NCBI RefSeq assembly: GCF_040183065.1
Contig: NW_027185499.1
Location: 1,054,001-1,118,000, forward strand
Direction: 5' to 3'
DNA from: Periplaneta americana
Lineage: Eukaryota; Arthropoda; Insecta; Blattodea; Blattidae
Length of the DNA: 64,000 nt
The first letter of the stretch is position 1. Every line of letters starts with the position of its first letter. Shown piece after piece: positions 736-62,121 of the stretch. The notes beneath the pieces were generated by a model. That model did no database searches, was not told the origin of the DNA, and saw only the letters and a program-made list of their open reading frames with translations. The position numbers and the translations under genes are program-made.

Positions 736-1600
736 CACTTTAGGTCCTAGGGAAATTCTATCAATACTGCCGTCAAATAGCTGTTCACAAAACAATTAAA
801 TTACCGATAATGCATGCGCGAATAACAAATTCTATCTGACGGGAATATGTGTGCCTATGAATGATTATGCATTAAGGGAGGCGGATAAAAAAGATGCAAT
901 AACTCGTTGTATCCATTGTGGGGATTGAAGAAAATTGATATATTTAAAGTAATGCATATAGTCCGAAACCGGTATCAACACCTGTGTTCTAAAATGAAAT
1001 CAATTTTTCAATTTTTTTTTCAGTAAACACATTTGATACGGGCCGCAGTGGTACTGCTATTAAGGAAGAGCCTCTAAGCAATATATACTATTACCTGTAT
1101 ACATATATATTTACTTACGTTGTTATAGACGCTGGTGATCAAAATTTCCTTTCTTGGGACAACCTAGAAGAGGAAAAGAAACTATTATAAATCATGTTAA
1201 AACATAGCACTGCGTCGGTAAATGCCAGCAGTACTTATTGATTTATCACTAATGCTAATAAGAACAAACCAGGAAAACAATCTACTCCCATGTTCGTCAG
1301 AACAACTGTAATTAATTCCATCTTCGAAGACCATGGCGTAATAAACCACATCAAAGCATGCATAAATAAGATAGAAACCAATATTCTATTTCGCAATTTT
1401 TCCCAATTGTCTATTGGATCAAATATTATATCCGTGTAAAAACGCTTTTGCACGAAAGATTTCAGTTCAGACTGTGACCCCGACTTGTCCACATCAAACA
1501 TCCCGCACTTCCAAATTACACTTTCTTACTCCAAGCATGACGCACACAGGTTTGCTAGGATTTGGTCCAACGCCGAACATCGGGTGAATCGCACAACACA
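735..1600 (-). repeat. A-type intronic segment, copy 1
   Basis: This stretch aligns collinearly with 41650-42188, 48430-49165, 54840-55375 and part of 61870-62700. Shared landmarks are the 'gtccgaaacc ggtatcaaca' motif, the block reading IKEEPL on the plus strand, exon A, the block 'actgcgtcgg' ... 'ccagcagtac', and the block ending near 'cccgcacttc'. It is the most diverged A copy; I judge the flanks to be roughly 85-90% identical to the others. It carries exon A1. Confidence 0.8.
1119..1163 (-). CDS. Micro-exon A1 (45 bp, phase 0-0)
   Basis: On the minus strand a pyrimidine-rich acceptor CTTTTCCTCTTCTAG precedes the exon and GTAAGTAAATAT follows it. The 15 codons read VVPRKEILITSVYNN, and the other two frames contain stops. 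The flanking intron is clearly homologous to the other A copies, yet the peptide has no resemblance to A2-A4. Function unknown. Confidence 0.65.
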
Positions 1601-39336: not shown

Positions 39337-39364
39337 CATTGACTTTTATATATAAGATTATTAA

Positions 39365-39422
<58 letters not shown>

Positions 39423-39853
39423 ATTTTTCAATTATAAATTGTTTAAAATTTATAAGTCAGACTATCTCTAAGTACTTCTGTTCAAATAAAATTCAAGAAA
39501 AAGGAAATTCATTCCTCTATATACTGCTGTAACCTGCACAAACTACAAATGATGTTAATAACCCTAAAGACGACAGCAAAGGGATATAGTGCATTGTAAA
39601 GAAAACAGTGGAACAGGACGAAGGCCTTGAAAATTGGTTGAAAACGAGGCAATAGTGATTTCCGACGAAACAGTGTCATATTTCAAATTTCTGTCTCCAG
39701 ATAAAATTGAATAATTCATAAATGACGAGCACCAGGCAAATGAGAATTAAAAAGGTGGCACAGTTTATTAATGTTACCACCACCACCACCACCAACACCA
39801 ACGTCTTTTTGTTGGATCAGTAGAAGAGAAGGCCTTACGGCCAGATAAAATAA

Positions 39854-39856
39854 ATG

Positions 39857-39950
<94 letters not shown>

Positions 39951-39989
39951 TTATATTATGTTTATTATTTTATTATTATATTATTATTA

Positions 39990-40024
<35 letters not shown>

Positions 40025-40045
40025 ATTTTTATTATTATTATTATT
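39854..40045. repeat. (ATT)n and (AGT)n microsatellites
   Basis: ATT array, then an AGT array of about 50 bp, then ATT again. The same order is at 53095-53235. Confidence 0.95.
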
Positions 40046-40469
40046 GGTACCTATAAATGTGATTTGAGGTGTAATCGATCGGCTTTTGATAGGATTCTTT
40101 GCTTAATTTCACAGAGCACGAAAATTAGAAAGTAAAATTGAACAATTTAACAAGAAAATTTATTTTTTAAATAACACAATACGTTTAAATGAAATAATAC
40201 TTTATGCTATTTATGATGTTATTCAGTATCCAGCTTGTCGAACTTATTACATCGGTAATGAAAGTATTTAATGAAGCTTAGTAAATAATATGTGATTCCA
40301 ATAAAATAACAGAGATTTTGTCATGCGTCTCAAATTTATTCAAAAGCAGAGGCAGGGGCAGACAAGGCCTGACGGCCATATATCTACCAGGTTAAATAAT
40401 TAAACACTAACGGTCTTACTAATAAAGACTCTATATGCAGACGTTTAACAGTCTGATGCAATGAGCAGC

Positions 40470-40736
40470 GCCACCGGCGTGGCTCAGTCGGTTAACGCGC
40501 TTGCCTGCCGGTCTGAAGTTGCGTTCGGGCGCGGATTCGATCCCCGCTTGGGCCGATTACCTGGTTGGGTTTTCTCCGAGGTTTTCCCCAACCGTAATGT
40601 GAATACAAGGTAATCTATGGCGAATCCTCGGCCTCATCTCGCCAAATATCATCTCGACATCACCAATCTCATCGACGCTAAATAACCTAGTAGTTGATAC
40701 AGCGTCGTTAAATAACCAACTAAAATTAAAAAAAAA
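40470..40736 (+). mobile_element. tRNA-derived SINE family 1, with 12-bp TSD
   Basis: Flanked by GCAATGAGCAGC (40458) and GCAATGAGTAGC (40737). The head has box A 'tggctcagtc ggttaacgcg' and box B 'ggattcgatc ccc'. The middle has 'ggttttctcc gaggttttcc'. The tail is AGCGTCGTTAAATAACC plus an A-rich end. Duplicated at 53658 as part of the higher-order repeat; an independent insertion lies at 63266. Confidence 0.9.
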
Positions 40737-41319
40737 GCAATGAGTAGCTCGTTTATAAGTCGTGTGTAAATTCCTTACTAATAATCACTACATACGTCGT
40801 GTATAACAGTATAGCTGTTACACAGCTACGTCATTACTTCATTACGAAAGTAATAGAACATCTGAGGTTCTCTATTGAATCCGGTAGAGCGCTCTAGTGT
40901 GCCGTGTTAAGTATCGATAGTACAACTAGCTCTGATCGATTACCACACTATATTTTGGTCAAAGAGTACAAGCTACAGCAATATTATTCCTATTATTCTG
41001 TGTTCTTTGGTTTGTTCTTCTGTGGTTACAAGGCAACCATCATCATTAAATGACTGTCGACACGAACAGCTGTTAGAGGGGCGGCCAATTTTTCTCTATA
41101 TACAACGCTTAATCAAGGGGTTTTCGTGTATATAACTACTGAAAAGGAATTCCCATTGTATACTTACAGCATGTTTATACACCCATCGCTTATGCAAGGG
41201 TTATTAGTAACGTTTTCTGTCTCAATTCTGCATACGCCTAGTTTAGAAACTACACACGGTTTATTAGTAAGACCGTAATACTAATACAAAAACACTAATA
41301 CTAATACAATCTATAACTT

Positions 41320-42188
41320 ATCAGTCACATTATTTAATAAAAATAAACCAAATCTACACGTTCTCTTCCCTTAACATTTTTACCATAATGTAGACTATAT
41401 TAAGAGATGCTTAATAACAGACAATGATTCACGTTAGAGATATTTATGGTAAGGTGGATATACATTCTATTATTCCACATTCAACGATCTTATCAAGAAA
41501 TATCGAGGATGGAGAAAGCAAAACACGTGCTGAAATTATTCCAAAATTAAAAGAATCAATGGAAAAATTGTCATTTCTTTATAAAACTAATATTTTTTAA
41601 TCTTATCTAGAATTTACACCTTGGTTTCTTTCATATATTTAAAAAATGAGACAATTACTCATTGTATCCATTGTGGAGACTGAAAAAAAAATTGAGATTT
41701 TTCAAGTAAGGCATATAATCCGAAACCAGTATCAACACCCGTATTCTAAAATGAAAATAATTTTGAAATTTTTTTTTTCAATAGACCCATTTGGTATGGG
41801 AGCCAGTGGTACTAATATTAAGGAAGAGCCTCTAAGCTTTATAATATAATACTGCTTGAATACATATATAGTTACTTACATCTTCGAGTAAGTTTGTTTC
41901 TCCTTTTGATCGATGTAAGTTAACCTAGAAAAGGAAAAAAAACTATTAAAATTAATGTTAAAAACATAGTACTGCGTCGGTAATTACCAGCAGTACTTAT
42001 TGATTTATCACTAATGCTAATAAGAACAAACCAAGGAAACAATGTAGGCTACTGCCATGTTCGTCTGACAAACTGTCAAGAAATCCTTACATCTACGCAT
42101 ATAACATATACATCCAGGATGAATACTAAATGCCGTCTTCGAAGACTAGGTCGTAATAGGCCACATCAAAGCATTCATAAATAAGATA
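41320..42188 (-). repeat. A-type intronic segment, copy 2
   Basis: Collinear with 48090-48968 and 54500-55374, beginning near 'aataaaccaa atctaca' and ending at 'cataaataag atagga'. Carries exon A2. Confidence 0.9.
41880..41924 (-). CDS. Micro-exon A2 (45 bp, phase 0-0)
   Basis: Acceptor TTTTTCCTTTTCTAG, donor GTAAGTAACTATA on the minus strand. Fifteen codons read VNLHRSKGETNLLED. Compared with A3, 17 of 45 bases differ while the flanks differ at about 3-4%. Compared with A4, three bases differ (N to K, E to K and one silent). Confidence 0.75.
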
Positions 42189-42189
42189 G

Positions 42190-43636
42190 GAAGGTCTTTT
42201 CCACTCCGATCTCACAACTAACACTCTGTATGCATTTGTGGATTCGCCCATACGTGCTACATGACCTGCCCATCTCACACGACTAGATTTAATGTTGCTA
42301 TTTAAGTCAGGTGAAAATACAATGCGTGCAGTTCTGCGTTGTAACTTCCTGTATTCTCCTGCAACTTCATCCCTCTTAGCCTCAAATATTTTCCTAAACC
42401 CTTATTCCCAAACACCCTTAATCTCTGTTTCTCTCTCTAAGCGAGAGTCCAAGTCTGACAATCATACAGAACAGCTGGTAACATAACTGGTTTATAAATA
42501 CGATGTAAGAGTAATGGAAAGGAGAAAAATTCTCTCCGGCGCCGGGATTTGAACCCAGGTTTTCAGCTCTACGTGCTGATGCTTTATCCAATAAACCACA
42601 CCGGATACCACACCGACGTCGGAGAGAATCGTCTCAGATTAAGCTCCAACTCTTGGGTTCCCTCTAGTGGCCGCCCTCTGCACTACGTCATAAAGTCTAT
42701 GAACGTAGGACCGAAGTCCACACATGTGTTGAGGTGCACTCGTTATGAGTGACTAGTTGGCCGGGATCCGACGGAATAAGCGCCGTCTTAAATCACGAAG
42801 TGATTTACGCATATCATATATATTATTTTAATGTACCGAAGTGCATATGATATTTCCATGCAGATATTCTGCGTCATCATTCGATGTAAAAGTAATGGAA
42901 CGGAGAAAAGTTCACCTCAACACATGTGTGGACTTCGGTCCTACGTTCATAGACTCTATGACGTAGTGCAGAGGACGGCTACTAGAGGAAACCCAAAAGT
43001 TGGCGCTTAATCTGACGCGGTGGTATCCGGTGTGGCTTAGTGGATCAAGCATCAGCACGTAGAGCTGAAAACCCGGGTTCAAATCCCGACGCCGGAGAGA
43101 ATTTTTCTCCTTTCCATTAATCTTACATCGCATGATGACGCAGAATATCTGCATGGAAATATCATATGTACTTCGGAACATTAAAATAATACATATGGTT
43201 TATAAATGCTAACTTTCAGATTTTTTAGACTCAGACGAGATGACAAAAGCTGCTGAACCGAATAATAACAAACATTTCCTATAATTTATTCTGTGTTTTA
43301 TTTCCTCTCGAGTGTCATTTAAATTTGTTATTTTCTCTAAGATATTTGAAATTTTCCACCTTTTTCGGAGAATAAATCTCCAAGTTTTATATTTCCATTT
43401 CGTGCAATATTCTGGTCACGATACGTATTCATTCCCCTTGTCTTTTCGGGATTTACTTCCACACCTATCGCTTTACTTGCTTCAAGTAAAATTTCCGTGT
43501 TTTTCGTAATATTTTGTGGATTTTCTCTTAACATATTCACGTCATTCGAATGGACAAGAAGCTGATGTTACCCGTTCAATTCCAAATCCTGTATGTTATT
43601 CTGAACTTTCCTCTTGGAATATTCTAGAGCGAAGGA
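42190..43636 (-). mobile_element. LINE-A relic split by an inverted SINE dimer
   Basis: The minus strand carries degenerate thumb and palm coding (for example [20 protein letters not shown] near 43480). It lacks the 3' terminus: its left edge joins the A segment directly. The SINE dimer sits at 42500-43196. An identical arrangement is at 55375-56821. Confidence 0.85.
42489..43207. mobile_element. Head-to-head inverted dimer of a tRNA-Tyr-like SINE, 11-bp TSD
   Basis: GGTTTATAAAT at 42489 and 43197 flanks about 700 bp. The left arm carries a tRNA-like head on minus (42535-42600), the right arm the same head on plus (43030-43100). Box B reads 'gggttcaaat cccg'. The anticodon arm TCAGC-ACGTAGA-GCTGA gives GTA, the Tyr anticodon. 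The arms are long imperfect complements, so promoters point outward from the centre. Confidence 0.8.
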
Positions 43637-44384
43637 ATATAACGCTTCTATTGCACTCAGATGAATTCTAATCTGCCTTTTTCGTGGCGCACATCGATTT
43701 GTTTAGATAGAACTTAATCATCCTTTATCACAAGCTCCAGTTGATTGCAGTAGCGGGGTTTTGAGCAAGTAATCTCAACTAGTTTTATTGATCACTGATA
43801 TGACTCTGCTTAAAGCTGTGTATTTGGCCTTTGTGGAGGTAATTTTTCGAAGTATTACGAAATCCACGATTTCGTTATTTATACCGTATGTGAAGTAGTA
43901 GTTCGTTACAATTTATGACATCGATAGAAATAACCCCATACAACTAAAAATTATTCATGCAGTTTTTTTTATAAGGCAAATATATGTCTTAAAATTGCAC
44001 CTCTTGTTGTAATGATTACGGCTTTAAATGTATCTTTTTTCAAATATATCTCCAAAGAGGTTTGCCCTTGAAATCATTACTCATCATCAATATCATCAAC
44101 AGCATGGCTTTGGCCTTTGGCTCTTCCGGCTTCAAGTATTGTGCTTACATGAAATATAATAGTAATATGGCCTATTATAATTGTACTGAGTTTTTATAAA
44201 ATGTTAAAATTTACAGTTCAAAAGACTGAAATATTATTCAATATTAATTAAATTGATCTCTCCATCGTTTACATGGACGTCCTTGGTCTCTTCTGCCCTT
44301 CTGCCGCAGGTGAATTCTAAATGATTCTCCCAAACTATACGCATATTCCACGTCAATTCATGTATATATGAAAAATTTACTTAC
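43637..44384 (-). repeat. B-type intronic segment, left and middle parts, copy 5
   Basis: 'gcactcagat gaattctaat' to 'tctccaaaga ggttt' matches 32620-33000, then a stretch found only here and at 57260-57560 ('catcatcaat atcatcaaca') precedes the exon. Confidence 0.8.
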
Positions 44385-44459
44385 CCCCTGATCACTGGAC
44401 GTGGACGCTCGCTGGTCAGCGTATTCTGTCGCTTTCTGATGTCGCAAATTGGGGGATTG
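44385..44459 (-). CDS. Micro-exon B4 (75 bp, phase 0-0)
   Basis: Acceptor CTTCGTTTTGCAG, donor GTAAGTAAATTT. Twenty-five codons begin QSPNLRHQKATEY and end QRASTSSDQG. Polar, Gln/Ser-rich, no recognised domain. Identical to B5. Confidence 0.75.
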
Positions 44460-46135
44460 CTGCAAAACGAAGTGAAGAATATCAGGCATTGTACAAAAAC
44501 ATGAAAAACGTCTTCAGGCCAAACAATTTTCCTGACCGAAATATAAGTACTCATTGTGGTAAAGTGGAATGTAGACTTCAGCGTTCTCAAAAAATATCTA
44601 ATGACCAGAAAAAAGGTTTTATTGGGAAAGTGCTGGTGCATTCAATTAATGCCATAGAGTTTTCTCGTCAAAACATCTTACGAACAAGATGATATATGCC
44701 AATAGTAAACAAAAAGAAACCTCAGTCTCAGCAACGAAACGTGTCATGCAAATTGAAGCAAACACATCACAGAAAATGAAATCATCAAATAGCAAGAAGT
44801 CTCACATCATGACTCTCACAGACATTAATCAAATACATAAAACATACTGCATAAAGACTTTCAAGCCATCCTAGCATTATAAACAGATTGTTACTACGTC
44901 GAAAGTTGTGCGTAATTGCCTTTATGTGGCACGCGTGCCGATAAAAGCAATGTCGTATTTGCTATAATGTAATACCGGAACGCTTGCTATCTTCGTTTTC
45001 CATTCTACGCGCAAAGTAACAGGAAATGAATTGCAGGACAGAAAGTAACGTAACATTTATTTTCAATCTTTAACACTTTTGTATAAATTTTGTAATATCA
45101 CATAACACAGTTCTGTGGGTCCGACAATTTTTAGTAGCTTATTTTACGACGCTTTATCAACATCTCAGGTTATTTAGCGTCTGAATGAAAATATGATAAT
45201 GACGATAAAATGAGTGCGGAGTCTCGCACCCAAAGTTACCCAGCATTTGCTCATATTCGGTTGAGGGAAAACACCGGAAAATAAACTCAACGAAGTAACT
45301 TGCCTCGACCGGAAGTCGAAACTGGACCACCTGATTTCGCGGCCAGACACGCTAACCGTTACTCCGCGGTTGTGGACGAGAATCTACATTAACAAAATAA
45401 AGGAACATTTGTGACGTAACCTACAAGGTCGTCCATTACTCTTTGCTGCATGTAAAAGCGAGGTGTAACTAATCGATAACAATATATTATTTCAATTTGT
45501 CAGCTATGGATCCCGAATAGAATATCTTTCATATGTTTTTTCCCACAATTTATAATGCTAAAATGCCTTAAATGTATTGTATCAACTCGTAGATAATCTT
45601 ATTATGAAATTCATGAATATTGTAGCACTCATTATCGTTCGTGCGACAAACATTCATCATGCCATAAACAGCAAGATTACCCATTTGTTGCATAAATAAC
45701 TATTATATTTTATTGTTCAATATAAGAATCTTCAAATTGAGTAACGTAAAGTGTTTGTTATTGATATTTATATTTTTCAATTACAATTTGCTTAAAATTT
45801 ACAACTCAGACTATCTCTAAGTATTTCGGTTCAAATAAAGTTGAAGAAAAAGGAAAATCATTCCGCTATAATTATATTGCAGTAACCAATACAAAATACA
45901 AATGATATTAATATCCCTAAACACGACAGCAAAGGCATATATTGCGTTGTAAAGAAAAACATTGGAACTGGACGAAGGGCTTGAAAATTTGGTTGAAAGC
46001 GAGGCAAAAGTGATTACCGGGCTAAAAAGTATCATACTTCAAATTTCTGTCTCAAGATAAAATTGAATAATTCATAAACAACGAGCACCAGCCAAAGAGA
46101 ATTAAAAAGGAAGCACAGATTTAGTACTGTTATTA

Positions 46136-46140
<5 letters not shown>
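44460..46140 (-). repeat. B-type intronic segment, upstream and outer parts, copy 5
   Basis: Holds the plus-strand readings CGKVECRLQRSQKISNDQKK and NSKQKETSVSATKRVMQIEA, a SINE insertion (45133-45375), the 'gagtaacgta aagtg' block and the VAKV-type block (45960-46080, frameshifted here). Confidence 0.8.
45133..45375 (-). mobile_element. tRNA-derived SINE family 2 (minus strand)
   Basis: Minus reading: box A 'gtaacggtta gcgtgtctgg', a degenerate box B, 'ttccggtgtt ttccctcaac', 'gagcaaatgc tgggtaactt', then 'gacgctaaat aacctgagat' and the tail AAGCGTCGTAAAATAAGC. The same insertion, inherited with the segment, is at 51980 and 58312. Confidence 0.8.
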
Positions 46141-46172
<32 letters not shown>

Positions 46173-46254
46173 TCTATTATTATTTTTATAATGTATTATT
46201 ATTATTATTATTACTATTACTATTTTACTTTTTGTTCGTTGAGTGGAAGAGAAG

Positions 46255-47244
46255 ACCTACGGCAGGTATGCTCAAAATTGTAAAAGCGCCGATTACACGG
46301 ATGATGCTGCACTGCATAACACACACAGCGTACGGACTGGGCTCCGCAACTATATTGCAGCACCGACCGTGGCATAGCTCTCACTGTCTTACAAATACGG
46401 ATAAGAAACTGAATTTGAAAAAGGAAAGAGTATACACTGCAATATTCAGTTATTACATTATTTATTATATTTTATACAGTTATGATACTATTATATCATA
46501 AATAATGTTATTTTCATATTCCACATTCAACATGTGTATTCTTTTCTGCAAGTAATCGGAAATCTATTTCCAACTAATTTACTGCAATGCACAAAAGATT
46601 CTCATCTGTTAATCGGGATCTACGTTTGGATTTTTGGATTTAGCAACCTTCATTCTCGAAAATAATTGTTTGCACACATATTTCGAGTGACAGCGAATAA
46701 GCTCATCTTGGGATATTGCGTTTTGTTCATTTTTTAACACTTCTATGCTTGGCAAGTCATATTCTCTGCATTTAGTTCAGAATAATTCTGCGTTACTTTG
46801 TAGATCAATTAACTCGTCCTGGAACTGCACTCTCACAGATTGTACTAAATTTACTATGAAATATTAACAAAAAGATTAATATCACTTTCCGTACGTCTAA
46901 AATCATTAAATCTATGTTCTGTGAATTCACATTTGTGCTGTTCCAGTACAGAGATGTAATTAACTATATTTTGTTCAGGCACCATACATCTCTTTAGAAG
47001 TTCACCATCCGTGAAGGCTTTTTAGTGCCTTAGCTAATTCCCAACATACTACATAACTTGCTCCTAAACAAAGACTCTGAACTGTTCGACTCTCTTCAAT
47101 GTTTGGCCTATCATGAAGTGCTTTCAATTTTTGAAACTTTATTGCACGTTGGACCCCTGAAAAATTATTTTATCATAACATATATTTCTATTGGAATAAA
47201 ATCACCACAATAACAATAGTTGTAGTAGTAATAACAATAACAAC

Positions 47245-47308
<64 letters not shown>

Positions 47309-47677
47309 TTGATATATGAATAGGCCTACATATTACAGAAAACAGCTTCCCTGTCACTTCGGCATGTTCTGGATGGCAGAGCGTATAATGTTTTATGTTG
47401 CTCAGTAGTATTCCTGACAATACCTTACAACATAGTAAACACTTTACGTTTTCACAACAAAAATAGTCTTCCTCCCACACTGTACGGAATGATCGTTTGC
47501 TTACAGAAGGTTTTGACTGTGTCATTGTCCCGCACTGTTCGTGCGTTCACTAAGTAATTGAACTGCCTTCCGCAGTCATCCGTCGAGCTTCGAACGAGGA
47601 ACAGCATGCTCTACATTCGAAGGTTGCGATTACAGAACGTAATCGGGAGTCAGAGAATGAGCATACCTGGCCTACGG
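46255..47677 (-). mobile_element. hAT element, 8-bp TSD, with empty site at 59422
   Basis: The element at 46263-47669 has termini CAGGTATGCTC/GAGCATACCTG, flanked by ACCTACGG and GCCTACGG. The other higher-order repeat copy shows the uninterrupted 'gaaggcctac ggcattaac' at 59420, which proves insertion after the 13-kb duplication. It contains decayed hAT transposase coding and a (TAA)n run at 47240-47305. Confidence 0.9.
46600..47525 (-). pseudogene. hAT transposase remnant (BED finger and dimerisation region)
   Basis: The N-terminal frame (47525 leftwards) reads MTQSKPSVSKRSFRTVWEED, then CLLCCKVLSGILLSNIKHYT and LCHPEH: a C2H(C/H) BED finger of the GTF2IRD2/ZBED type. Further left, RSRLTDENLLCIAVN near 46620 is the usual C-terminal dimerisation motif. 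The middle catalytic part is deleted and replaced by microsatellite. Confidence 0.75.
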
Positions 47678-47701
47678 CATTAACACTGCTAGCTAAAATA
47701 A

Positions 47702-47770
<69 letters not shown>

Positions 47771-47775
47771 TATTG
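47678..47775. repeat. LINE-F-type 3' tail remnant and (ATT)n
   Basis: 'cactgctagc taaaataaat' followed by an ATT array, then a short LINE-A RT piece reading RNR-like codons, as at 59560, 53240 and 40045. Confidence 0.85.
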
Positions 47776-48089
47776 TTGTTATTGGGCACTATAAATTTGT
47801 TTTACGCATAATCGAACGGCTATTAGTCAGATTCTTTGTTTTATTCCACAGATCACGAAAATTAGAAAGTAATATTGAACAATGCAACAATAAAATTTAA
47901 TTTTTAAATAACACAATTCTTTAAATCAAGTAATACCTTATATTATGTATTATGTTATTCAACATCCATCTTGTCGCACTTGTTACATCAGTAATGAAGA
48001 TATTTAATGAAGCTTAGTAAATATGTGATTGTTTATAAATAACAGAGATTTTGTGATGCGACTCAAATTTATTCAAAAGCAGACAATCT

Positions 48090-49170
48090 GTATCAGTCAC
48101 ATCGTTTAATAAAAATAACCCAAATCTACATGATCTCTTCCCTTAACATTTTTACCATAATGTAGGCTATTTAAGAGATGCTTAATAACAGACAATGATT
48201 GACGTTAGATATATTTATGGTAAGGTGGAAGTACATTCTATTATTCCACATTCAACGATCTTATCAAGAAATATCGAGGATGGAGAAAGCAAAATACGTG
48301 CTGAAATTATTCCAAAATTAAAAGAATCAATGGAAAAATTGTCATTTCTTTATAAAATTAATATCTTTTAATCTTATCTAGAATATACACCTTGGTTTCT
48401 TTCATATATTTAAAAAAAAGAGACAATTACTCATTGCACTCATTGTAGAGACTGAAAAAAATTGATATTTTTCAAGTAAGGCATATAGTCCGAAACCGGT
48501 ATCAACACCCGTGTTCTAAAATGAAAACAATTTTGAAAATTTTTCTTTCAATATACCCATTTGGTATGGGAGCCAGTGGTACTAATATTAAGGAAGAGCC
48601 TCTAAGCTTTATAATATACTACTACTTGAATACATATATATAGTTACTTACTTCTTCCAACAGGTTCGTCTCCGCTTTTGTGCGGTGAAGATGAATCTAG
48701 AAAAGGAAAAATAAAAACTATTAAAATTAATGTTAAAAACATAGTACTGCGTCGGTAATTGCCAGCAGTACTTATTGATTTATCACTAATGCTAATAAGA
48801 ACAAACCAAGGAAACAATGTAGGCTACTGCCATGTTCGTCTGACAAACTGTCGAGAAATCCTTAGATGTACGCATATAACATATACATCCAGGATGAATA
48901 ATAAATGCCTTCTTCGAAGACCAGGTCGTAATAGGCCACATCAAAGCATTCATAAATAAGATAGGAAGCAATACTCTATTTTGCTATTTTCCCCAATTGT
49001 CTATAGGATCAAATATTATTTCCGTGTGAAACGCTTTTGTATTGAAGCTTTCAGTTCAGACTGTGACTCCGACTTGTCCATATCAAACATCCCGCACTTC
49101 GAAATTACACTTTCTTGCTCCAAGCATGACGCACACAGTTTTACTAGGATTCAGTCCACATCAGAAGCTG
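48090..49170 (-). repeat. A-type intronic segment, copy 3
   Basis: Collinear with copies 2 and 4 and, beyond 48970, with 1390-1560. Carries exon A3 and is the reference for the exon versus intron divergence contrast. Confidence 0.9.
48652..48696 (-). CDS. Micro-exon A3 (45 bp, phase 0-0)
   Basis: Acceptor TTTTTCCTTTTCTAG, donor GTAAGTAACTATA. Fifteen codons read IHLHRTKAETNLLEE. Nine residues equal A2. About ten of the 17 nucleotide differences are synonymous (CAT/CAC, CGA/CGC, GAA/GAG, ACA/ACG, TTA/CTG and others), so the peptide pattern is kept while codons have turned over. Confidence 0.75.
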
Positions 49171-49644
49171 ATTAAAGTGAGCTATATCTTGAACTTTTCC
49201 TATTGTTGGTTTGGAATATATTATTTCATTAAAAAACACATAATGCATAGTATATTGTTTCTACTTTGATAATAGAGACGTAAGTAGTTTAACAAACAGC
49301 CATGTCTTCACTCATGTAAAATTGAACAAGCACGTTTAACCATATGTTTGAAAAAGGCATTCCCTGTCAAAACTGGATATGGTATTGAACATTTTTTTAA
49401 ACAAAAATTAATGATAAAATTGATCTATTATTATTATTTGCGGTTTGTTTAAGAAATAATTCATAAACACACTCTAAATCTGAAAATTTTTAGCAGCACG
49501 AAGAGGTTTTTCGGAGCTTGCGTAACTTCCAAAACCTTCTCATGTAAAGACGCAAACTTGCATACATATCAGCTTATGGCTCCCCATCACAGAGAGTGCA
49601 TGACCTGTTATATCCTCTTCGAGGAGATTCGATTTTGTAAGTTG

Positions 49645-49650
<6 letters not shown>
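49171..49650 (-). repeat. A-type intronic segment, distal part (matches 4780-5060)
   Basis: The part from 49400 aligns with 4780-5060. 49171-49400 contains nothing else recognised. Confidence 0.7.

Positions 49651-49728
<78 letters not shown>
49651..49728. repeat. (ATT)n microsatellite
   Basis: An ATT array abutting the 5' end of LINE-D. Confidence 0.95.
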
Positions 49729-49729
<1 letters not shown>

Positions 49730-50158
49730 GAAACTAGTGAAGGGCTTTGTGTGGAGTGTGGTATTGTATGGGGCAGAAACATGGACATTACGATTAAGAA
49801 ACAAATAGAAGCATTTGTTTGAAATTTGAATATCTACAAGAATGAAGAGTGTGAAGTGTGTAGACAGAATAAGAAATGAAGTTGTGTTGGAAAAAGTGGG
49901 TGAAGACAGACTGATACTGATACTGATCAGAAAGAGAAAAAGGAATTGGTTGAATCACTGGATGAAAAAAAAAACTGGCTACTGAAGGAAGGAATGGGGA
50001 ATGGGAAACGGGAAAAGAGTTCGGGGCAAATGAAGATTTCAGATGATAGACGATATTAAAATATATGGATCATTATGCGAAGGCTAAGAGGAAGGGAGAA
50101 AATACGAAAGATTGTGGAATGCTGGGATTGCAGTGAAAGACCTGCCCGGAGTCAGAAC
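49729..50158 (+). mobile_element. LINE-D 3' end
   Basis: KKLVKGFVWSVVLYGAETWT begins the surviving RT thumb. Then come RNEVVLEKVGED-type and RKRKRNWLNHW-type stretches in shifted frames, ending 'gagtcagaac' and a GTAT tail. Members at 28500 and 28985. Confidence 0.8.
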
Positions 50159-50233
50159 ATGTATGTATGTATGTATGTATGTATGTATGTATGTATGTAT
50201 GTATGTATGTATGTATGTATGTATCTATGTATC

Positions 50234-50279
<46 letters not shown>

Positions 50280-50342
50280 AGTATGTATGCATGCAGGTAT
50301 GCATGTATGTATGTACGTATGTATGTATTTATGTATGTAGCC
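50159..50342. repeat. (GTAT)n/(AT)n microsatellite, LINE-D tail
   Basis: GTAT units, a central AT run, then imperfect GTAT/GCAT. Adjacent to the LINE-D 3' end, so probably grown from its tail. Confidence 0.95.
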
Positions 50343-50369
50343 TACGTATATACCATTATCATTGTCAGT

Positions 50370-50606
50370 CGTAAACTGGGGTTACTTTGAACACAGAGAA
50401 AACTTTGACCATTTTTTTCAGAAAATCACATTTAGGCTTCTACATGCTGCACTTGTTATAGATGGAGGTAAATTTGGTATGAGAATGATTTTATGATAAT
50501 TTACCTCCATCTATAACAAATGCAACATGTAGAAACCTAAATATGATTTTCTGAAAAAAAAAAATGGTCAGAGTTTCCTCTGTGTTCAAAGTAACCCCAG
50601 TTTACG
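50370..50606. mobile_element. Near-perfect palindromic MITE (CGTAAACTGGGGTTACTTTG)
   Basis: Both 100-bp arms are complementary, with a short centre near 50488. No TSD beyond a possible dinucleotide. Its right end abuts the LINE-A 3' terminus. Confidence 0.85.
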
Positions 50607-51446
50607 GTACTTACAAATGGCTTTCAAGGAATCCGCAGCTGCATTGCCGCCCTCATATAAGCCAGCCATCTGTCCCTATCCTGTGCAATGTTAATCAAGT
50701 CTCCAACATCACAATACATTTTCATATTATCCTCTCATCTGTGACTCGGATTCCCAAAAGGTGTTTTCCCCTCCGGTCTCACAACTAACACTCTATATGC
50801 ATTTCTGGATTCGCCCATACGTGCTACATGCCATACCCATCTCAAACGTCTGGATTTAATGTTCCTAATTATGTCAGGTGAAGAATTCAATGCGTGCAGT
50901 TCTGCGTTGTGTAACTTTCTCCATTCTCCTGTAACTTCACCCCTCTTAGCCCCAAATATTTTCCTAATAACCTTATTCCCAAACACCCTTAATCTCTGTT
51001 TCTCTCTCTAAGTGAGAGTTCAAGTCTCACAACCATACAGAACAACCGGTAATATAACTCGTCTATAAATTCTAGCCTTCAGATTTTTTAACCGCAGACT
51101 AGATGACAAAAGCTGCTCAACCGAATAATAACAAGCACTTCCAACATTTCTTCTGCGTTTTATTTCCCCTCGAGTGTCATTTATATTTTTTACTGTTCAT
51201 TCAAGATATTTGAAATTTTCCTCCTCTTCAGAACATAAATTTCCAAGCTTTATTTTCCATTTTGTACAATATTCTGGTCACGAAACATAATCATATCCTT
51301 TGTCTTTCATGGATATACTTCCAAACCAATCGCTTTACTTGCTTCAAGTAAACATTTTCTTGTTTTCCCTAATCCCTTGTGGATTTTCTCTTAACATATT
51401 CACGTCTTTCCAATAGACAAGAAGCTGATGGTTACCCTTCCACTCC
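50607..51446 (-). mobile_element. LINE-A 3' region (minus strand)
   Basis: Minus frames include NKVIRKIFGAKRGEVTGEWR and SRRLRWVWHVARMGESRNAY. It ends abruptly at 51446 in B-type intron, at the place where a B exon should be. Confidence 0.85.
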
Positions 51447-52555
51447 AAATTCAAAAAATGTCTAATGACAAGAAACAATTTTTTTTGGAAAAGTGCTGGT
51501 GCCCTCAATTAATGCCATAGTGTTTTCTCGTCAAAACATCTCACGAACAAGAAGATATATGCCTAATAGTAAACAAAAAGAAACGTCAGTCACAGCAACA
51601 AAAAGTGTCATGCAATCATAGAAAATTAAATTATCAAATCGTAAGAAATGTCATATTTTGACTCTCATAGACATTAATCAAATACATGAAACATACTGCA
51701 TAAAGACTTTTATGCCATCCTAGCATTATAAACAGATTGTTACTACGTCGAAAATTGTGCGTAACTGGCTTATTGTGGCACGCGTGCCGATAAAAGCAAT
51801 GTCGTAGGCTATATGCTATAATGTAATATCGGAATGTTTGGTGTCTTGGTTATGCATTCTACACGGGAAGTAACAAGAAATTAAATGCAGGACAGAAGGT
51901 AACGTATCTTTTATGTCCAATCTTTAACAATTTTGTATCACTTTGGAATATCACATAAAACGGATCTGTGGTTCAGGGATTTTTAGTACCTTATTTTACG
52001 ACGCTTTATCAACATGTGCGGTGCCTCGCACTGAAAGCTAGCTAGTATTTGCTCATATTCGGTTAAAGAAAAAAAAAAACGGAAAAAATATCAACGAGGT
52101 AATTTGCCTCTACCGGGAATCGAAACTGGGCCATATGATTTCGCGGTCAGACACGCTAACCCTTACTCCTCGGTTGTGGACGAGAATCTATATTAACAAT
52201 ATAAAGGATCATTTATAACGTAACCTACATTACTTTTTACTCAAAGTCAATGCCAAGCACAAATAATCGATAAGAACATATGAATACAATTTGTCATTTG
52301 TGGATTCCGAATTGAACTTCTTTAATAATTTTTTCCCACAATTCATAATGATAGAATGCCTTAAAGTGTTGTATCAAACTCTTAGATAATCTTATTATGA
52401 AACTCATGAAAATTGCAGCGCTCTTTATCGTTCGTGCGACAAAAAAATATTCATCATGCCATAAACATCAATATTATCCGATAGTTGCATAAATAACAAT
52501 TATAATTTATTGTTCAATATAAGAATCTTCAAATTCAGTATTGTAAAAAGTTTGT
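51447..52555 (-). repeat. B-type intronic segment lacking its exon, copy 6
   Basis: Starts inside the block 'aaaaaatgtc taatgac' that lies about 120 bp upstream of exons B4 and B5, so the B exon and its splice sites have been lost at the LINE-A junction. Includes a SINE family 2 insertion (51980-52185). Confidence 0.85.
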
Positions 52556-52575
52556 TATTATTATTATTATTATTA

Positions 52576-52621
<46 letters not shown>

Positions 52622-53090
52622 CATTATTATATTATTATTATTAATATTTTTCAATTATAAATTGCTTAAAATTTATAAGTCAGACTATCTCTAAGTACTT
52701 CTGTTCAAATAAAATTGAAGAAAAAGGAAATTCATTCCTCTATATACTGTATTGCTGTAACCTGCACAAACTACAAATGATGTTAATGACTCTAAAGACG
52801 ACAGCAAAGGGATATAGTGCATTGTAAAGAAAAACAGGGGAACAGGACGAAGGCCTTGAAAATTTGGTTGAAAACGAGGCAAAAGTGATTTCAGACAAAA
52901 CAGTGTCATATTTCAAATTTCTGTCTCCAGATAAAATTGAATAACTCATAAATAACGAGCACCAGGCAAATGAGAATTAAAAAGGTGGCACAGTTTATTA
53001 ATGTTACCACCACCACCACCACCACCACCACCACCGTCTTTTTGCTGGATCAGTAGAAGAGAAGACCTTACGTCCAGCTAAAATAAATGA

Positions 53091-53130
<40 letters not shown>

Positions 53131-53131
53131 C

Positions 53132-53174
<43 letters not shown>

Positions 53175-53657
53175 TTATACTATTTTTATTATTTTATTAT
53201 TATTATATTATTATTAATATTATTATTATTATTGGTACCTATAAATGTGGTTTGAGGTGTAATCGATCGGCTTTTGATAGGATTCTTTGTTTTATTTCAC
53301 AGAGCACGAAAATTAGAAAGTAAAATTGAACAATTTAACAAGAAAATTTATTTTTTAAATAACACAATAAGTTTAAATGAAATAATACTTTATGCTATTT
53401 ATGATGTTATTCAGTATCCATCTTGTCGAACTTATTACATCAGTAATGAAAGTATTTAATGAAGCTTAGTAAATAATATGTGATTGCAATAAAATAACAG
53501 AGATTTTGTCATGCGTCTCAAATTTATTCAAAAGCAGAGGCAGGGGCAGAGAAGGCCTGGCGGTCATATATCTACCAGGTTAAATAATTAAACACTAACG
53601 GTCTTATTAATAAAGACTCTATATGCAGACGTTTAACTGTCTGATACAATGAGCAGC

Positions 53658-53921
53658 GCCACCGGCGTGGCTCAGTCGGTTAACGCGCTTGCCTGCCGGT
53701 CTGAAGTTGCGTTCGGGCGCGGATTCGATCCCCGCTTGGGCCGATTACCTGGTTGGGTTTTTTCCGATCTTTTCCCCAAACGTAATGTGAATACAAGGTA
53801 GTCTATGGCGAATCCTCGGCCTCATCTCGCCAAATATCATCTCGACATCACCAATCTCATCGACGCTAAATAACCTAGTAGTTGATACAGCGTCGTTAAA
53901 TAACCAACTAAAATAAAAAAA
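53658..53921 (+). mobile_element. SINE family 1, duplicate of 40470-40736
   Basis: Flanked by ACAATGAGCAGC and ACAATGAGTAGC. It differs from its twin by a few bases ('ttttttccga tcttttcccc' in the middle). Confidence 0.9.
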
Positions 53922-54499
53922 ACAATGAGTAGCTCGTTTATAAGTCGTGTGTAAATTCCTTACTAATATTCACTACATACGTCGTGTATAACAGTATAGC
54001 TGTTACACAGCTACGTCATTACTTCATTACGAAAGTAATAGAACATCTGAGGTTCTCTATTGAATCCGGTAGAGCGCTCTAGTGTGCCGTGTTAAGTATC
54101 GATAGTACAACTAGCTCTGATCGATTACCACACTATATTTTGGTCAAAGAGTACAAGCTACAGCAATATTATTCCTATTATTCTGTGTTCTTTGGTTTGT
54201 TCTTCTGTGGTTACAAGGCAACCATCATCATTAAATGACTGTCGACACGAACAGCTGTTAGAGGGGCGGCCAATTTTTCTCTATATACAACGCTTAATCA
54301 AGGGGTTTTCGTGTATATAACTACTGAAAAGGAATTCCCATTGTATACTTACAGCATGTTTATACACCCATCGCTTATGCAAGGGTTATTAGTAACGTTT
54401 TCTGTCTCAATTCTGCATACGCCTAGTTTAGAAACTACACACGGTTTATTAGTAAGACCGTAATACTAATACAAAAACACTAATACTAATACAATCTAT

Positions 54500-55374
54500 A
54501 ACTTATCAGTCACATTATTTAATAAAAATAAACCAAATCTACACGTTCTCTTCCCTTAACATTTTTACCATAATGTAGGCTATATTAAGAGATGCTTAAT
54601 AACAGACAATGATTCACGTTAGAGATATTTATGGTAAGGTGGATATACATTCTATTATTCCACATTCAACGATCTTATCAAGAAATATCGAGGATGGAGA
54701 AAGCAAAACACGTGCTGAAATTATTCCAAAATTAAAAGAATCAATGGAAAAATTGTCATTTCTTTATAAAATTAATATTTTTTAATCTTATCTAGAATTT
54801 ACACCTTGGTTTCTTTCATATATTTAAAAAATGAGACAATTACTCATTGTATCCATTGTGGAGACTGAAAAAAAAATTGAGATTTTTCAAGTAAGGCATA
54901 TAATCCGAAACCAGTATTAACACCCGTGTTCTAAAATGAAAATAATTTTTAAATTTTTTCTTTCAATAGACCCATTTGGTATGGGAGCCAGTGGTACTAA
55001 TATTAAGGAAGAGCCTCTAAGCTTTATAATATAATACTGCTTGAATACATATATAGTTACTTACATCTTTTAGTAAGTTTGTTTCTCCTTTTGATCGATG
55101 TAATTTAACCTAGAAAAGGAAAAAAAACTATTAAAATTAATGTTAAAAACATAGTACTGCGTCGGTAATTACCAGCAGTACTTATTGATTTATCACTAAT
55201 GCTAATAAGAACAAACCAAGGAAACAATGTAGGCTACTGCCATGTTCGTCTGACAAACTGTCGAGAAATCCTTACATCTACGCATATAACATATACATCC
55301 AGGATGAATACTAAATGCCGTCTTCGAAGACTAGGTCGTAATAGGCCACATCAAAGCATTCATAAATAAGATAG
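54500..55374 (-). repeat. A-type intronic segment, copy 4
   Basis: About 99% identical to copy 2 outside the exon. Confidence 0.9.
55065..55109 (-). CDS. Micro-exon A4 (45 bp, phase 0-0)
   Basis: Acceptor TTTTTCCTTTTCTAG, donor GTAAGTAACTATA. Reads VKLHRSKGETNLLKD. Three substitutions from its twin A2, two of them amino-acid changes to Lys. Confidence 0.75.
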
Positions 55375-56821
55375 GAAGGTCTTTTCCACTCCGATCTCAC
55401 AACTAACACTCTGTATGCATTTGTGGATTCGCCCATACGTGCTACATGACCTGCCCATCTCACACGACTAGATTTAATGTTGCTATTTAAGTCAGGTGAA
55501 AATACAATGCGTGCAGTTCTGCGTTGTAACTTCCTGTATTCTCCTGCAACTTCATCCCTCTTAGCCTCAAATATTTTCCTAAACCCTTATTCCCAAACAC
55601 CCTTAATCTCTGTTTCTCTCTCTAAGCGAGAGTCCAAGTCTGACAATCATACAGAACAGCTGGTAACATAACTGGTTTATAAATACGATGTAAGAGTAAT
55701 GGAAAGGAGAAAAATTCTCTCCGGCGCCGGGATTTGAACCCAGGTTTTCAGCTCTACGTGCTGATGCTTTATCCAATAAACCACACCGGATACCACACCG
55801 ACGTCGGAGAGAATCGTCTCAGATTAAGCTCCAACTCTTGGGTTCCCTCTAGTGGCCGCCCTCTGCACTACGTCATAAAGTCTATGAACGTAGGACCGAA
55901 GTCCACACATGTGTTGAGGTGCACTCGTTATGAGTGACTAGTTGGCCGGGATCCGACGGAATAAGCGCCGTCTTAAATCACGAAGTGATTTACGCATATC
56001 ATATATATTATTTTAATGTACCGAAGTGCATATGATATTTCCATGCAGATATTCTGCGTCATCATTCGATGTAAAAGTAATGGAACGGAGAAAAGTTCAC
56101 CTCAACACATGTGTGGACTTCGGTCCTACGTTCATAGACTCTATGACGTAGTGCAGAGGACGGCTACTAGAGGAAACCCAAAAGTTGGCGCTTAATCTGA
56201 CGCGGTGGTATCCGGTGTGGCTTAGTGGATCAAGCATCAGCACGTAGAGCTGAAAACCCGGGTTCAAATCCCGACGCCGGAGAGAATTTTTCTCCTTTCC
56301 ATTAATCTTACATCGCATGATGACGCAGAATATCTGCATGGAAATATCATATGTACTTCGGTACATTAAAATAATACATATGGTTTATAAATGCTAACTT
56401 TCAGATTTTTTAGACTCAGACGAGATGACAAAAGCTGCTGAACCGAATAATAACAAACATTTCCTATAATTTATTCTGTGTTTTATTTCCTCTCGAGTGT
56501 CATTTAAATTTGTTATTTTCTCTAAGATATTTGAAATTTTCCACCTTTTTCGGAGAATAAATCTCCAAGTTTTATATTTCCATTTCGTGCAATATTCTGG
56601 TCACGATACGTATTCATTCCCCTTGTCTTTTCGGGATTTACTTCCACACCTATCGCTTTACTTGCTTCAAGTAAAATTTCCGTGTTTTTCGTAATATTTT
56701 GTGGATTTTCTCTTAACATATTCACGTCATTCGAATGGACAAGAAGCTGATGTTACCCGTTCAATTCCAAATCCTGTATGTTATTCTGAACTTTCCTCTT
56801 GGAATATTCTAGAGCGAAGGA
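55375..56821 (-). mobile_element. LINE-A relic with inverted SINE dimer (duplicate)
   Basis: Same structure as 42190-43636; the dimer lies at about 55685-56381 with the same GGTTTATAAAT duplications. Confidence 0.85.
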
Positions 56822-57569
56822 ATATAACGCTTCTATTGCACTCAGATGAATTCTAATCTGCCTTTTTCGTGGCGCACATCGATTTGTTTAGATAGAACTT
56901 AATCATCCTTTATCACAAGCTCCAGTTGATTGCAGTAGCGGGGTTTTGAGCAAGTAATCTCAACTAGTTTTATTGATCACTGATATGACTCTGCTTAAAG
57001 CTGTGTATTTGGCCTTTGTGGAGGTAATTTTTCGAAGTATTACGAAATCCACGATTTCGTTATTTATACCGTATGTGAAGTAGTAGTTCGTTACAATTTA
57101 TGACATCGATAGAAATAACCCCATACAACTAAAAATTATTCATGCAGTTTTTTTTATAAGGCAAATATATGTCTTAAAATTGCACCTCTTGTTGTAATGA
57201 TTACGGCATTAAATGTATCCTTTTTCAAATATATCTCCAAAGAGGTTTGCCCTTGAAATCATTACTCATCATCAATATCATCAACAGTATGGCTTTGGCC
57301 TTTGGCTCTTCCGGCTTCAAGTATTGTGCTTACATGAAATATTATAGTAATATGGCCTATTAAAATTGTACTGAGTTTTTATAAAATGTTAAAATTTACA
57401 GTTCAAAAGACTGAAATATTATTCAATATTAATTAAATTGATCTCTCCATCGTTTACATGGACGTCCTTGGTCTCTTCTGCCCTTCTGCCGCAGGTGAAT
57501 TCTAAATGATTCTCCCAAACTATACGCATATTCCACGTCAATTCATGTATATATGAAAAATTTACTTAC

Positions 57570-57644
57570 CCCCTGATCACTGGACGTGGACGCTCGCTGG
57601 TCAGCGTATTCTGTCGCTTTCTGATGTCGCAAATTGGGGGATTG
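57570..57644 (-). CDS. Micro-exon B5 (75 bp, phase 0-0)
   Basis: Identical in sequence and splice borders to B4 (QSPNLRHQKATEY ... QRASTSSDQG), as expected from the recent 13-kb duplication. Confidence 0.75.
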
Positions 57645-59321
57645 CTGCAAAACGAAGTGAAGAATATCAGGCATTGTACAAAAACATGAAAAACGTCTTC
57701 AGGCCAAACAATTTTCCTGACCGAAATATAAGTACTCATTGTGGTAAAGTGGAATGTAGACTTCAGCGTTCTCAAAAAATATCTAATGACCAGAAAAAAG
57801 GTTTTATTGGGAAAGTGCTGGTGCATTCAATTAATGCCATAGTGTTTTCTCGTCAAAACATCTTACGAACAAGATGATATATGCCAATAGTAAACAAAAA
57901 GAAACCTCAGTCTCAGCAACGAAACGTGTCATGCAAATTGAAGCAAACACATCACAGAAAATGAAATCATCAAATAGCAAGAAGTCTCACATCATGACTC
58001 TCACAGACATTGATCAAATACATAAAACATACTGCATAAAGACTTTCAAGCCATCCTAGCATTATAAACAGATTGTTACTACGTCGAAAGTTGTGCGTAA
58101 TTGCCTTTATGTGGCACGCGTGCCGATAAAAGCAATGTCGTATTTGTAATGATGTAATACCGGAACGCTTGCTATCTTCGTTTTCCATTCTACGCGCAAA
58201 GTAACAGGAAATGAAATGCAGGACAGAAAGTAACGTAACATTTATTTTCAATCTTTAACACTTTTGTATAAATTTTGTAATATCACATAACACAGTTCTG
58301 TGGGTCCGACAATTTTTTAATAGCTTATTTTACGACATTTTATCAACATCTCAGGTTATTTAGCGTCTGAATGAAAATATGATAATGACGATAAAATGAG
58401 TGCGGAGTCTCGCACCCAAAGTTACCCAGCATTTGCTCATATTCGGTTGAGGGAAAACACCGGAAAATAAACTCAACGAAGTAACTTGCCTCGACCGGAA
58501 GTCGAAACCGGGCCACCTGATTTCGTGGCCAGACACGCTAACCGTTACTCCGCGGTTGTGGACGAGAATCTACATTAACAAAATAAAGGAACATTTGTGA
58601 CGTAACCTACAAGGTCGTCCATTACTCTTTGCTGCATGTAAAAGCGAGGTGTAACTAATCGATAACAATATATTATTTCAATTTGTCAGCTATGGATCCC
58701 GAATAGAATATCTTTCATATGTTTTTTCCCACAATTTATAATGCTAAAATGCCATAAAGTGTTGTATCAACTCGTAGATAATCTTATTATGAAATTCATG
58801 AAAATTGTAGCACTCATTATCGTTCGTGCGACAAACATTCATCATGCCATAAACATCAAGATTACCCACTTGTTGCATAAATAACTATTATATTTTATTG
58901 TTCAATATAAGAATCTTCAAATTGAGTAACGTAAAGTGTTTGTTATTGTTATTTATATTTTTCAATTACAATTTGCTTAAAATTTACAACTCAGACTATC
59001 TCTAAATATTTCGTTTCAAATAAAATTGAAAAAAAAAAGGAAAATCATTCCGCTATAATTATATTGCAGTAACCAATACAAAATACAAATGATATTAATA
59101 ACCCTAAACACGACAGCAAAGGCATATATTGTATTGTAAAGAAAAACATTGGAACTGGACGAAGGGCTTGAAAATTTGGTTGAAAGCGATGCAAAAGTGA
59201 TTTCCGACGAAAAAGTATCATATTTCAAATTTCTGTCTCCAAATAAAATTGAATAATTCATAAATAACGAGCACCAGCCAAAGAGAATTAAAAAGGAGGC
59301 ACAGATTTATTACAGTTATTA

Positions 59322-59358
<37 letters not shown>

Positions 59359-59400
59359 TTATAATGTATTATTATTATTACTATTACTATTTTACTTTTT
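57645..59400 (-). repeat. B-type intronic segment, upstream and outer parts, copy 7
   Basis: Includes the SINE family 2 duplicate (58312-58560). The plus-strand frame LELDEGLENLVESDAKVISD...KVSYFKFLSPNKIE is open to its stop near 59250. Confidence 0.85.
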
Positions 59401-59452
59401 GTTCGTTGAATGGAAGAGAAGGCCTACGGCATTAACAATGCCAGCTAAAATA

Positions 59453-59545: not shown

Positions 59546-59944
59546 TTGTTGGTATTGGGCACTATAAATGTGTTTAAGCGTAATCGAACGGCTATTAATC
59601 AGATTCTTTTTTTTATTTCACAGTGCGCGAAAATTGGAAAGTAATATTGAACAATTAAACAAGAAAATTTAATTTTTAAATAACAGAATTCTTTAAATGA
59701 AGTAATACCTTTTGTTATTTATTATGTTATTCAACATCCATCTTGTCGCACTTGTTACATTAGTAATGAAGATATTTAATGAATCTTTGTAAATATGTGA
59801 TTGTATATAAATAACAGAGATTTTGTGATGTGTGTCAAATTTATTCCAAAGCAGACAATCTATATCAGTCACATCGTTTAATAAAAATAAACCAAATATA
59901 CATGTTCTCTTCCCTTAAAATTTTTACCATAACGTAGGCCAGTC

Positions 59945-61728: not shown

Positions 61729-62121
61729 AAATATGGATTAAAGACCACCGATGAGATATCGTATAAAGTTGGAACATTGACTGAATTCAAGAATTTTCAA
61801 AGTATTGTAAAACACGATGTGAATATTGTGCGCGCACATTTAAAATTATTTACTGAAGGTCTATGGGTCGTTTGCAATATGAATGATGAGAAGTGTTCTC
61901 TTTCTTGTAGCATTTATTTTTATATCTAAAGACAGTAAGTCCTAGAGAAATTTTATTAATTACGAAGCTACTTGCCTATTTCATCAAACAAAATTCAATT
62001 ACCGATAATGAAGGAAGGTATGTAGTTCGAAACTGGTATTAATATCTCTGTCCTGAAATTAAATTTAATTTTGAAAATAAATAAACAAATAAACACGTAT
62101 CATAAGAAATGCACTGCACAC

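Follow-up and report, generated by a model that had tools for sequence, protein, structure and literature searches.

As a rule, exons should change more slowly than introns. The locus described here raises the question of why the reverse can be found, at single-base resolution as far as the splice sites, in a family of very short exons of the cockroach Periplaneta americana. It lies in a stretch of 64,000 nucleotides (nt) that we call the window (assembly GCF_040183065.1, contig NW_027185499.1, here C18, positions 1,054,001 to 1,118,000 of the forward strand); positions given without a contig are those of the window. We cautiously favor the answer that short-tract gene conversion has partly separated old exon cassettes from the introns around them (exon switching), an explanation that on balance is probably correct. 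The exons concerned, A1 to A4, lie on the minus strand, are bounded by TTTTCCTTTTCTAG and GTAAGTAAC, and sit in blocks made up of the exon and its conserved flanking introns. The blocks and the tandem units of the window are as follows.

1119..1163, minus strand: A1 exon, 45 nt, VVPRKEILITSVYNN; in the hypervariable A1-type set
847..1569, minus strand: A1 block, exon and conserved flanking introns
41880..41924, minus strand: A2 exon, type T1, 45 nt, VNLHRSKGETNLLED
41319..42193, minus strand: A2 block, exon and conserved flanking introns; upstream part from ~42191 replaced by a dispersed repeat
48652..48696, minus strand: A3 exon, type T2, 45 nt, IHLHRTKAETNLLEE
48091..48968, minus strand: A3 block, exon and conserved flanking introns
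55065..55109, minus strand: A4 exon, type T1, 45 nt, VKLHRSKGETNLLKD
54504..55378, minus strand: A4 block, exon and conserved flanking introns
39357..52580, no strand: 13.2-kb tandem unit, consisting of a T1 half-unit and a T2 half-unit
52581..59431, no strand: portion of the following 13.2-kb unit, 97.4% identity to 39357-46264

An initial annotation of the window had reported that the A2 and A3 exons differ at 17 of 45 bases and their introns at about 8 of 265 and 4 of 105. Re-alignment gave the same 17 of 45, without gaps, together with 7 of 269 bases in the upstream intron and 3 of 103 in the nearest downstream part, so that the intron counts were correct to within a base or so and the roughly ten-fold excess of exon divergence holds for this pair. 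Over the entire downstream flank, 29 of 558 bases differ. Across the 872 aligned columns, the densest 45-base segment, with 17 changes, begins exactly at the exon border (41880), the densest one outside the exon has 5 changes, and none of 10,000 permutations of the alignment attained 17 changes in a 45-base window. Comparison of A4 with A3 gave a similar result (exon 18/45; flanks 6/269 and 27/558), and the two T1 exons, A2 and A4, differ at 3/45 exon bases with flanks at 1/269 and 6/561.

Many of the exon changes were also said to be synonymous, and 10 of the 17 between A2 and A3 were counted as such on about 10 synonymous sites, which gives proportions of differing synonymous sites (pS) and nonsynonymous sites (pN) of 1.0 and 0.20. 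The other seven changes affect five residues and are mostly mild (V/I, N/H, S/T, G/A, D/E). The peptide is thus fairly conserved, while silent sites are saturated. Because of this saturation, ordinary positive selection is not the explanation. Silent exon divergence moreover lies far above the 12.0% and 16.0% found in other collinear parts of the T1/T2 half-unit duplication, which makes positive selection on amino acids at the surrounding mutation rate insufficient, and neutrality likewise fails to explain reversed divergence combined with saturated synonymous change. One alternative is that ancient exon lineages are held apart by balancing or diversifying selection, with static exons and conversion homogenizing the introns alone, as in major histocompatibility complex (MHC) or opsin genes. 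Both the saturation of synonymous sites in a retained protein pattern and the closeness of the A2 and A3 flanks (2.6-5.2%) relative to the other collinear half-unit parts (12-16%) are consistent with this alternative, to which we return below.

The exons belong to an insect family; the assembly gave 122 matches to 7tm_6, the insect-specific odorant receptor family, compared to none in 14 control genomes. A splice-border pattern search of the 3.23-Gb assembly (91 contigs) matched 80 places, compared to none in a reversed control; by eye, 70 were classed as A-type exons (69 of 45 nt and one of 44), six as copies of a single 42-nt exon, and the remaining four as unrelated. A second pattern, for the A1 type, gave 31 matches, 30 of them A1-type exons, and two matches in the control. 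The flanks of the 42-nt exon resemble A-type flanks (the longer matches, of 300-480 bases, are 65-73% alike). Searching with the 42-nt exon itself revealed further members, and all six that were read carry 42-nt B-type exons (ELTYGDKVGTLKKT and relatives); a B-type block search gave 40 matches at 93-100% identity among the 40 scored of 277 candidates, with exons read in six. Exon lengths in the family are 42, 45, and 48 nt, with a single 44-nt exception (C16_2), and spacing ranges from 1.7 kb to tens of kb. Judged by their borders, reading frame, and codon pattern, these are probably phase-0 micro-exons.

On C18, cluster I runs along the minus strand in the order A6, A5, A4, A3, A2, A1, X (B type). 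The nearest B-type block lies 20-24 kb downstream of A1 (A1 at C18:1055110; B at C18:1031499-1031962), and no B-type exon was found among A2 to A6 in 84 kb, where the only matches of the B queries were to A blocks and to short stretches. Cluster II, inverted and about 200 kb from A1, runs in the order T5, Y (B type), an A1-type exon, and a B-type block. In cluster II, a B-type block lies 1.7-1.9 kb beyond the A1-type exon and in the same orientation, for example at these positions.

C15:168560285/168562021, C15:168567154/168568861, C9:2317298/2319034, C9:2324217/2326022: cluster II A1-type/B-type pairs

We read such A-B pairs as a 29-residue repeat that would be split across two micro-exons. 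By listed positions, a similar layout occurs on C3, C9, C12, C15, C21, and C23, and the repeated segment spans at least several hundred kb. The region appears about a dozen times (C18, C15, C12, C9, C3, C21, C23, C26) in the form of large amplicons; copies are spaced several Mb apart on C15 (~140-182 Mb) and C12 (2-11 Mb), and others are on small contigs.

The initial annotation had named local misassembly of one copy as an outcome that would undo its claim. Some copies do lie on small contigs (1.3-4.1 Mb), which could be alternative haplotypes. However, the same exons are present on several large contigs, in similar order and with open frames, which makes local misassembly unlikely, and haplotigs would not part an exon from its flank. 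We therefore consider an assembly or haplotig artefact to be hardly credible as the source of the pattern.

The repetition supplies natural replicates, in that the same position can be compared across about a dozen amplicons, and exon exchange, intron homogenization, and hypermutation predict different things for them. Excess exon divergence recurred in several of these comparisons. A5 and A6 form a 4.4-kb tandem duplicate with 162 mismatches, amounting to ~3.4% outside the exon and 0-8 per 100 bases outside the interval that holds the exon; that interval has 17 mismatches, and the exon itself differs at 14 of 45 bases. A shifted donor in A6 (GAG|GTAACT) would give an exon of 48 nt with the frame kept. 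At the A1-type position, the 10 loci of cluster I vary at 19 of 45 exon sites compared to 41 of 639 flank sites (p 2e-10), and across all 30 A1-type loci there are 16 different exon sequences. Two B-type pairs behave likewise: X_C18 and X_C21 differ at 4/42 exon and 0/341 flank bases, and Y_C18 and Y_C9 at 5/42 and 2/341.

The kind of change in the A1-type set bears on the diversifying selection that the initial annotation had offered as one option. The A1-type core has pS 0.65 and pN 0.24, compared to ~2% in the flanks, and sites vary at all three codon positions (9, 5, and 10 of 15). Codons 1, 4, 9, 14, and 15 keep their residue, and codons 7, 9, and 12 encode I, V, L, or M with one exception. 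By contrast, residues at codons 5, 6, 8, 10, and 13 do vary in kind (codon 8 encodes L, F, E, V, R, or I). Even at these five codons pooled, dN did not exceed dS (pS 0.59, pN 0.35), and synonymous change is as extreme or more so, which means that this option alone does not fit. The alternation of fixed hydrophobic with variable positions would suit a strand that exposes one of its faces, such as those of proteins for binding or recognition.

If the exons had diverged in place, their distances should follow those of their flanks. We compared the two in 20 of the 30 A1-type loci, namely the 10 of cluster I and 10 of cluster II, the latter picked from 20 loci partly for their exons (some shared with cluster I), which was not the case for the former. 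Exon distance was nearly independent of flank distance (r 0.11, Mantel p 0.17). Moreover, of 190 pairs, 11 have identical exons and the remainder are 4-14 differences apart, with none at 1-3. These results bear on the rival idea of exon-targeted hypermutation, that is, a locally high rate or bursts of mutation filtered by purifying selection on the protein, which would explain why pS and pN both exceed flank divergence. In-situ hypermutation simulated on the flank tree gave r 0.74 ± 0.07 and 18 pairs at 1-3 differences, and none of 1000 runs was as low as observed on either measure. This outcome was insensitive to the settings: with two branch floors and 18, 24, or 45 sites free to mutate, r was 0.66-0.74, and none of 500 runs each reached either value.

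Individual loci lead to the same conclusion that exon and intron histories are partly separate. A1_C3 and B_C3_49236 have identical flanks (0/313) around exons that are 10/45 apart, although these two loci lie ~182 kb from each other and are inverted. Conversely, one exon is common to C23 A1, C9:2324217, and C15:176859395, the flanks of which differ by 3-6 of 313 bases. In the comparison of C23 A1 with C15:176859395, the flanks first differ at -98 on one side and at +24 on the other; provided that these differences predate the transfer, a shared tract can be no longer than ~167 bp. Likewise, C12 A1 and C15:168560285 share an exon, and their right flanks show no differences in 150 columns while seven occur in the left flank from -153 to -35.

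The identical flanks of the two distant, inverted C3 loci are also what homogenization of introns around static, selected exons would produce, and identical exons in different flanks fit moving exons equally well without proving which part moved. A5 and A6 argue against static exons, since a collinear 4.4 kb with ~3.4% divergence is most simply read as one recent duplication, after which an exon changed. We thus regard intron homogenization alone as unlikely, though worth serious weight. Replacement of exons, or conversion that uncouples exon from intron, both raised in the initial annotation, gained support from the near-independence of distances at 20 loci (weaker in the 10 cluster I loci), from shared exons in different flanks, and from the A5/A6 duplicate; movement of exons and homogenization of introns are told apart only in part by these data.

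Several results weigh against exon switching, and some of them favor hypermutation. Taken by themselves, the 10 cluster I loci show a correlation between exon and flank distances (r 0.40, p 0.008), although none of the 45 pairs falls at 1-3 differences; this correlation, together with the partly exon-based choice of cluster II loci, implies that the uncoupling is only partial. No mosaic structure was detected inside A1-type exons (7.19 segments needed, compared to 7.42 ± 0.24 after codon shuffling) in a test run on 18 loci, without B_C12a_2358 and B_C15_168567, both of which are included in the 20-locus distance tests and simulations. No donor was found for the A3 exon in a genome search allowing up to 3 mismatches: its 17 copies (15 identical, two with one change) are all at T2 positions of arrays. 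Nor was a donor found for the A6 exon, whose 13 copies within 3 mismatches are all identical, with flanks read for all except C9:376726, C12:6897973, C13:196743, and C26:76926. For A3 and A6, the donor may therefore have been lost or left unassembled, or the exon may have changed in a local burst. Small exon differences also occur, of 1-3 bases in T1, 1 in T2, 1-2 in A5 (plus one copy with 7), and 1-3 in T5. Finally, in the older groups, T1/T2/C16 and A5/A6, exon types track the intron tree, and free shuffling is thus not general. In the pS/pN and intron-tree analyses we left out C16_2, with its 44-nt exon, and C15_140, with an off-pattern acceptor and an exon read by eye.

Excess exon divergence is moreover not universal in the family. 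The 12 T5 loci have 4 variable exon sites of 45, compared to 36 of 622 in flanks (p 0.34), and the B-type pair Z_C23 and Z_C15 shows 0/42 exon and 6/341 flank differences. The 801-bp pieces around eight of the invariant A6 copies are 96.4-100% identical to the C18 copy; the A6 exon on C3 differs by four. Two single copies, on C7 and C14, are 5/45 apart in the exon and 7.5-14.3% apart in the flanks. The stable and small-difference classes together imply that an exon is stable much of the time and that only certain positions or lineages undergo large changes. Invariance of A6 in 13 copies and the lack of elevation in T5, in the same amplicons that contain the A1-type set, are difficult to reconcile with exon-targeted hypermutation, as are the missing A1-type pairs at 1-3 differences and a flank correlation that is too low. 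We accordingly hold hypermutation to be improbable as the general cause. Another possibility is that selection favors nucleotide change in the spliced RNA itself, as when an amplified, possibly selfish family evades silencing by small RNAs; synonymous sites of exons would then change and introns be spared. It would agree with a synonymous excess limited to exons and with about a dozen amplicon copies, but it predicts neither the gap at 1-3 differences nor the invariance of T5 and A6, and seems to us very unlikely.

The exon switching that we prefer could work as follows. The family would comprise genes, possibly very long ones, with a coding sequence divided among phase-0 micro-exons of 42-48 nt, each embedded in several hundred bases of conserved intron. 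Exons would exist as discrete variants, or cassettes, mostly unchanged within a variant (up to 15 identical copies) and, between variants, as divergent as very old paralogues, with saturated synonymous sites and a retained hydrophobic pattern. Ectopic gene conversion among copies, within and between amplicons, would proceed by short tracts that end in or near the nearly invariant splice borders, so that exons may be switched into other flanks and introns homogenized around them; tracts ending in shared borders would account for both exon transfers and intron homogenization. Selection would retain different exons in different copies, perhaps for diverse binding surfaces of a single protein into which the exons may be joined. 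Conversion as the agent, and the exon rather than the flank as the part that moved, are our suggestions from these comparisons. A more far-reaching version, which we consider speculative and doubtful, is a dedicated cassette-switching system in an insect, in which intron borders serve as docking sequences, 42-48-nt cassettes are copied between amplicons, and the binding surface of a repeat protein is rewritten exon by exon. If true, it would be comparable in function to the diversification of variant surface antigens or bird immunoglobulins by gene conversion, but in an animal germ line.

The nearest known system is exon segment switching (ASSET) in snake three-finger toxins, in which exon segments change while introns stay alike (>85% identical), the source of new segments being not known (PMC2474615). 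The cockroach family resembles it in that exon segments seem to be replaced, rather than mutated rapidly, within introns that are alike. However, the toxin segments are parts of larger exons, whereas in the cockroach the change takes in complete 42-48-nt exons as far as the splice sites, and some variants turn up in other flanks as well. Nothing observed ties the cockroach family to venom, and in place of a venom scaffold with conserved cysteines the exon peptides that were read have no cysteine and no Pfam match. The family also bears on the origin of new exon segments, a question left by ASSET. Schistosome micro-exon genes (MEG) have very short exons regularly interspersed with long introns (PMC10526429). 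Serial short exons with lengths that are multiples of three (42, 45, and 48 nt) and long introns are likewise present here, if the exons indeed belong to one transcript; unlike MEG, the exons here are in an insect, are related to each other together with their introns, and are repeated in large amplicons. What sets the present family apart from ASSET and MEG is that complete micro-exons change, that it belongs to an insect, and that exons at one position, compared across many amplicons, are either identical or very different, with a measured gap in between.

Bicycle genes of aphids have a structure of many micro-exons, and their proteins are named after CYC motifs. They are described as a fast-evolving insect gene family (PMC9168663, PMC13041983). 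In contrast to CYC-motif proteins, the A and B exon peptides, the only exons of the gene read here, contain no cysteine. Conversion leaves the introns of MHC genes and primate L/M opsins more similar to one another than the exons under selection; their exons are long, the contrast fades over hundreds of bases, and dN exceeds dS at MHC binding sites. Here, the contrast is limited to a 45-nt exon. Arthropod Dscam also has duplicated variable exons in clusters (PMC3364881, PMC3236188); Dscam variable exons, however, encode parts or wholes of immunoglobulin domains. Exons of the Dscam kind are mutually exclusive, each transcript taking one from a cluster through RNA pairing; the candidate intron hairpin of the present family (see below) showed no covariation. 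In the openly available part of the literature, we found no description of this micro-exon family.

Searches for the identity of the encoded protein gave few matches. Among ten open reading frames (ORFs) of >75 amino acids from 84 kb of C18 scanned against Pfam, three are reverse-transcriptase fragments and the other seven had no match. Two inferred A-B peptides matched no Pfam family, and one of them found no match in the Protein Data Bank (PDB) better than E 0.56. Cysteine is absent from all A and B exon peptides that were read. The stretch upstream of A exons, at 48899-49158 and 1309-1569, reads MFDMDKSESQSELK... and is conserved in the A1, A3, A5, A6, and C26 copies; its A1 version has no Pfam match. 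A candidate conserved intron hairpin upstream of the exon (AGTACTGC...GCAGTACT) was rejected, because in 17 sequences no pairs had changed on both sides and pairing was no better than in shuffles.

Two short matches in the window probably or possibly mark remnants of further blocks.

59863..59937, minus strand: short match to the A-block downstream edge, 92% over 75 nt; probably a truncated block
62011..62078, minus strand: short match to the B-type block downstream flank, 82% over 71 nt; candidate A or B block remnant

When C18 was set against the other four arrays (0.7% divergence over 244,475 aligned columns), most differences were in simple repeats, and several clusters of 6-7 changes per 45 bases were present. 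Between C18 and C23, a non-repeat island with 21 of 45 bases differing lies in otherwise near-identical DNA, past the window end (offset 66899-67010 from the window start). The 13-kb units also contain inverted pairs of tRNA-Tyr-like elements, possibly short interspersed elements (SINEs), at 42534-42605 (minus)/43026-43097 (plus) and 55719-55790 (minus)/56211-56282 (plus). A self-complementary stretch of ~270 bp at 62201-62471 is overlapped by an ARAGORN call of a tRNA-Ser at 62160-62234, and a minisatellite-like GAGT/GGGT repeat at 31596-31988 has three open frames on the minus strand.

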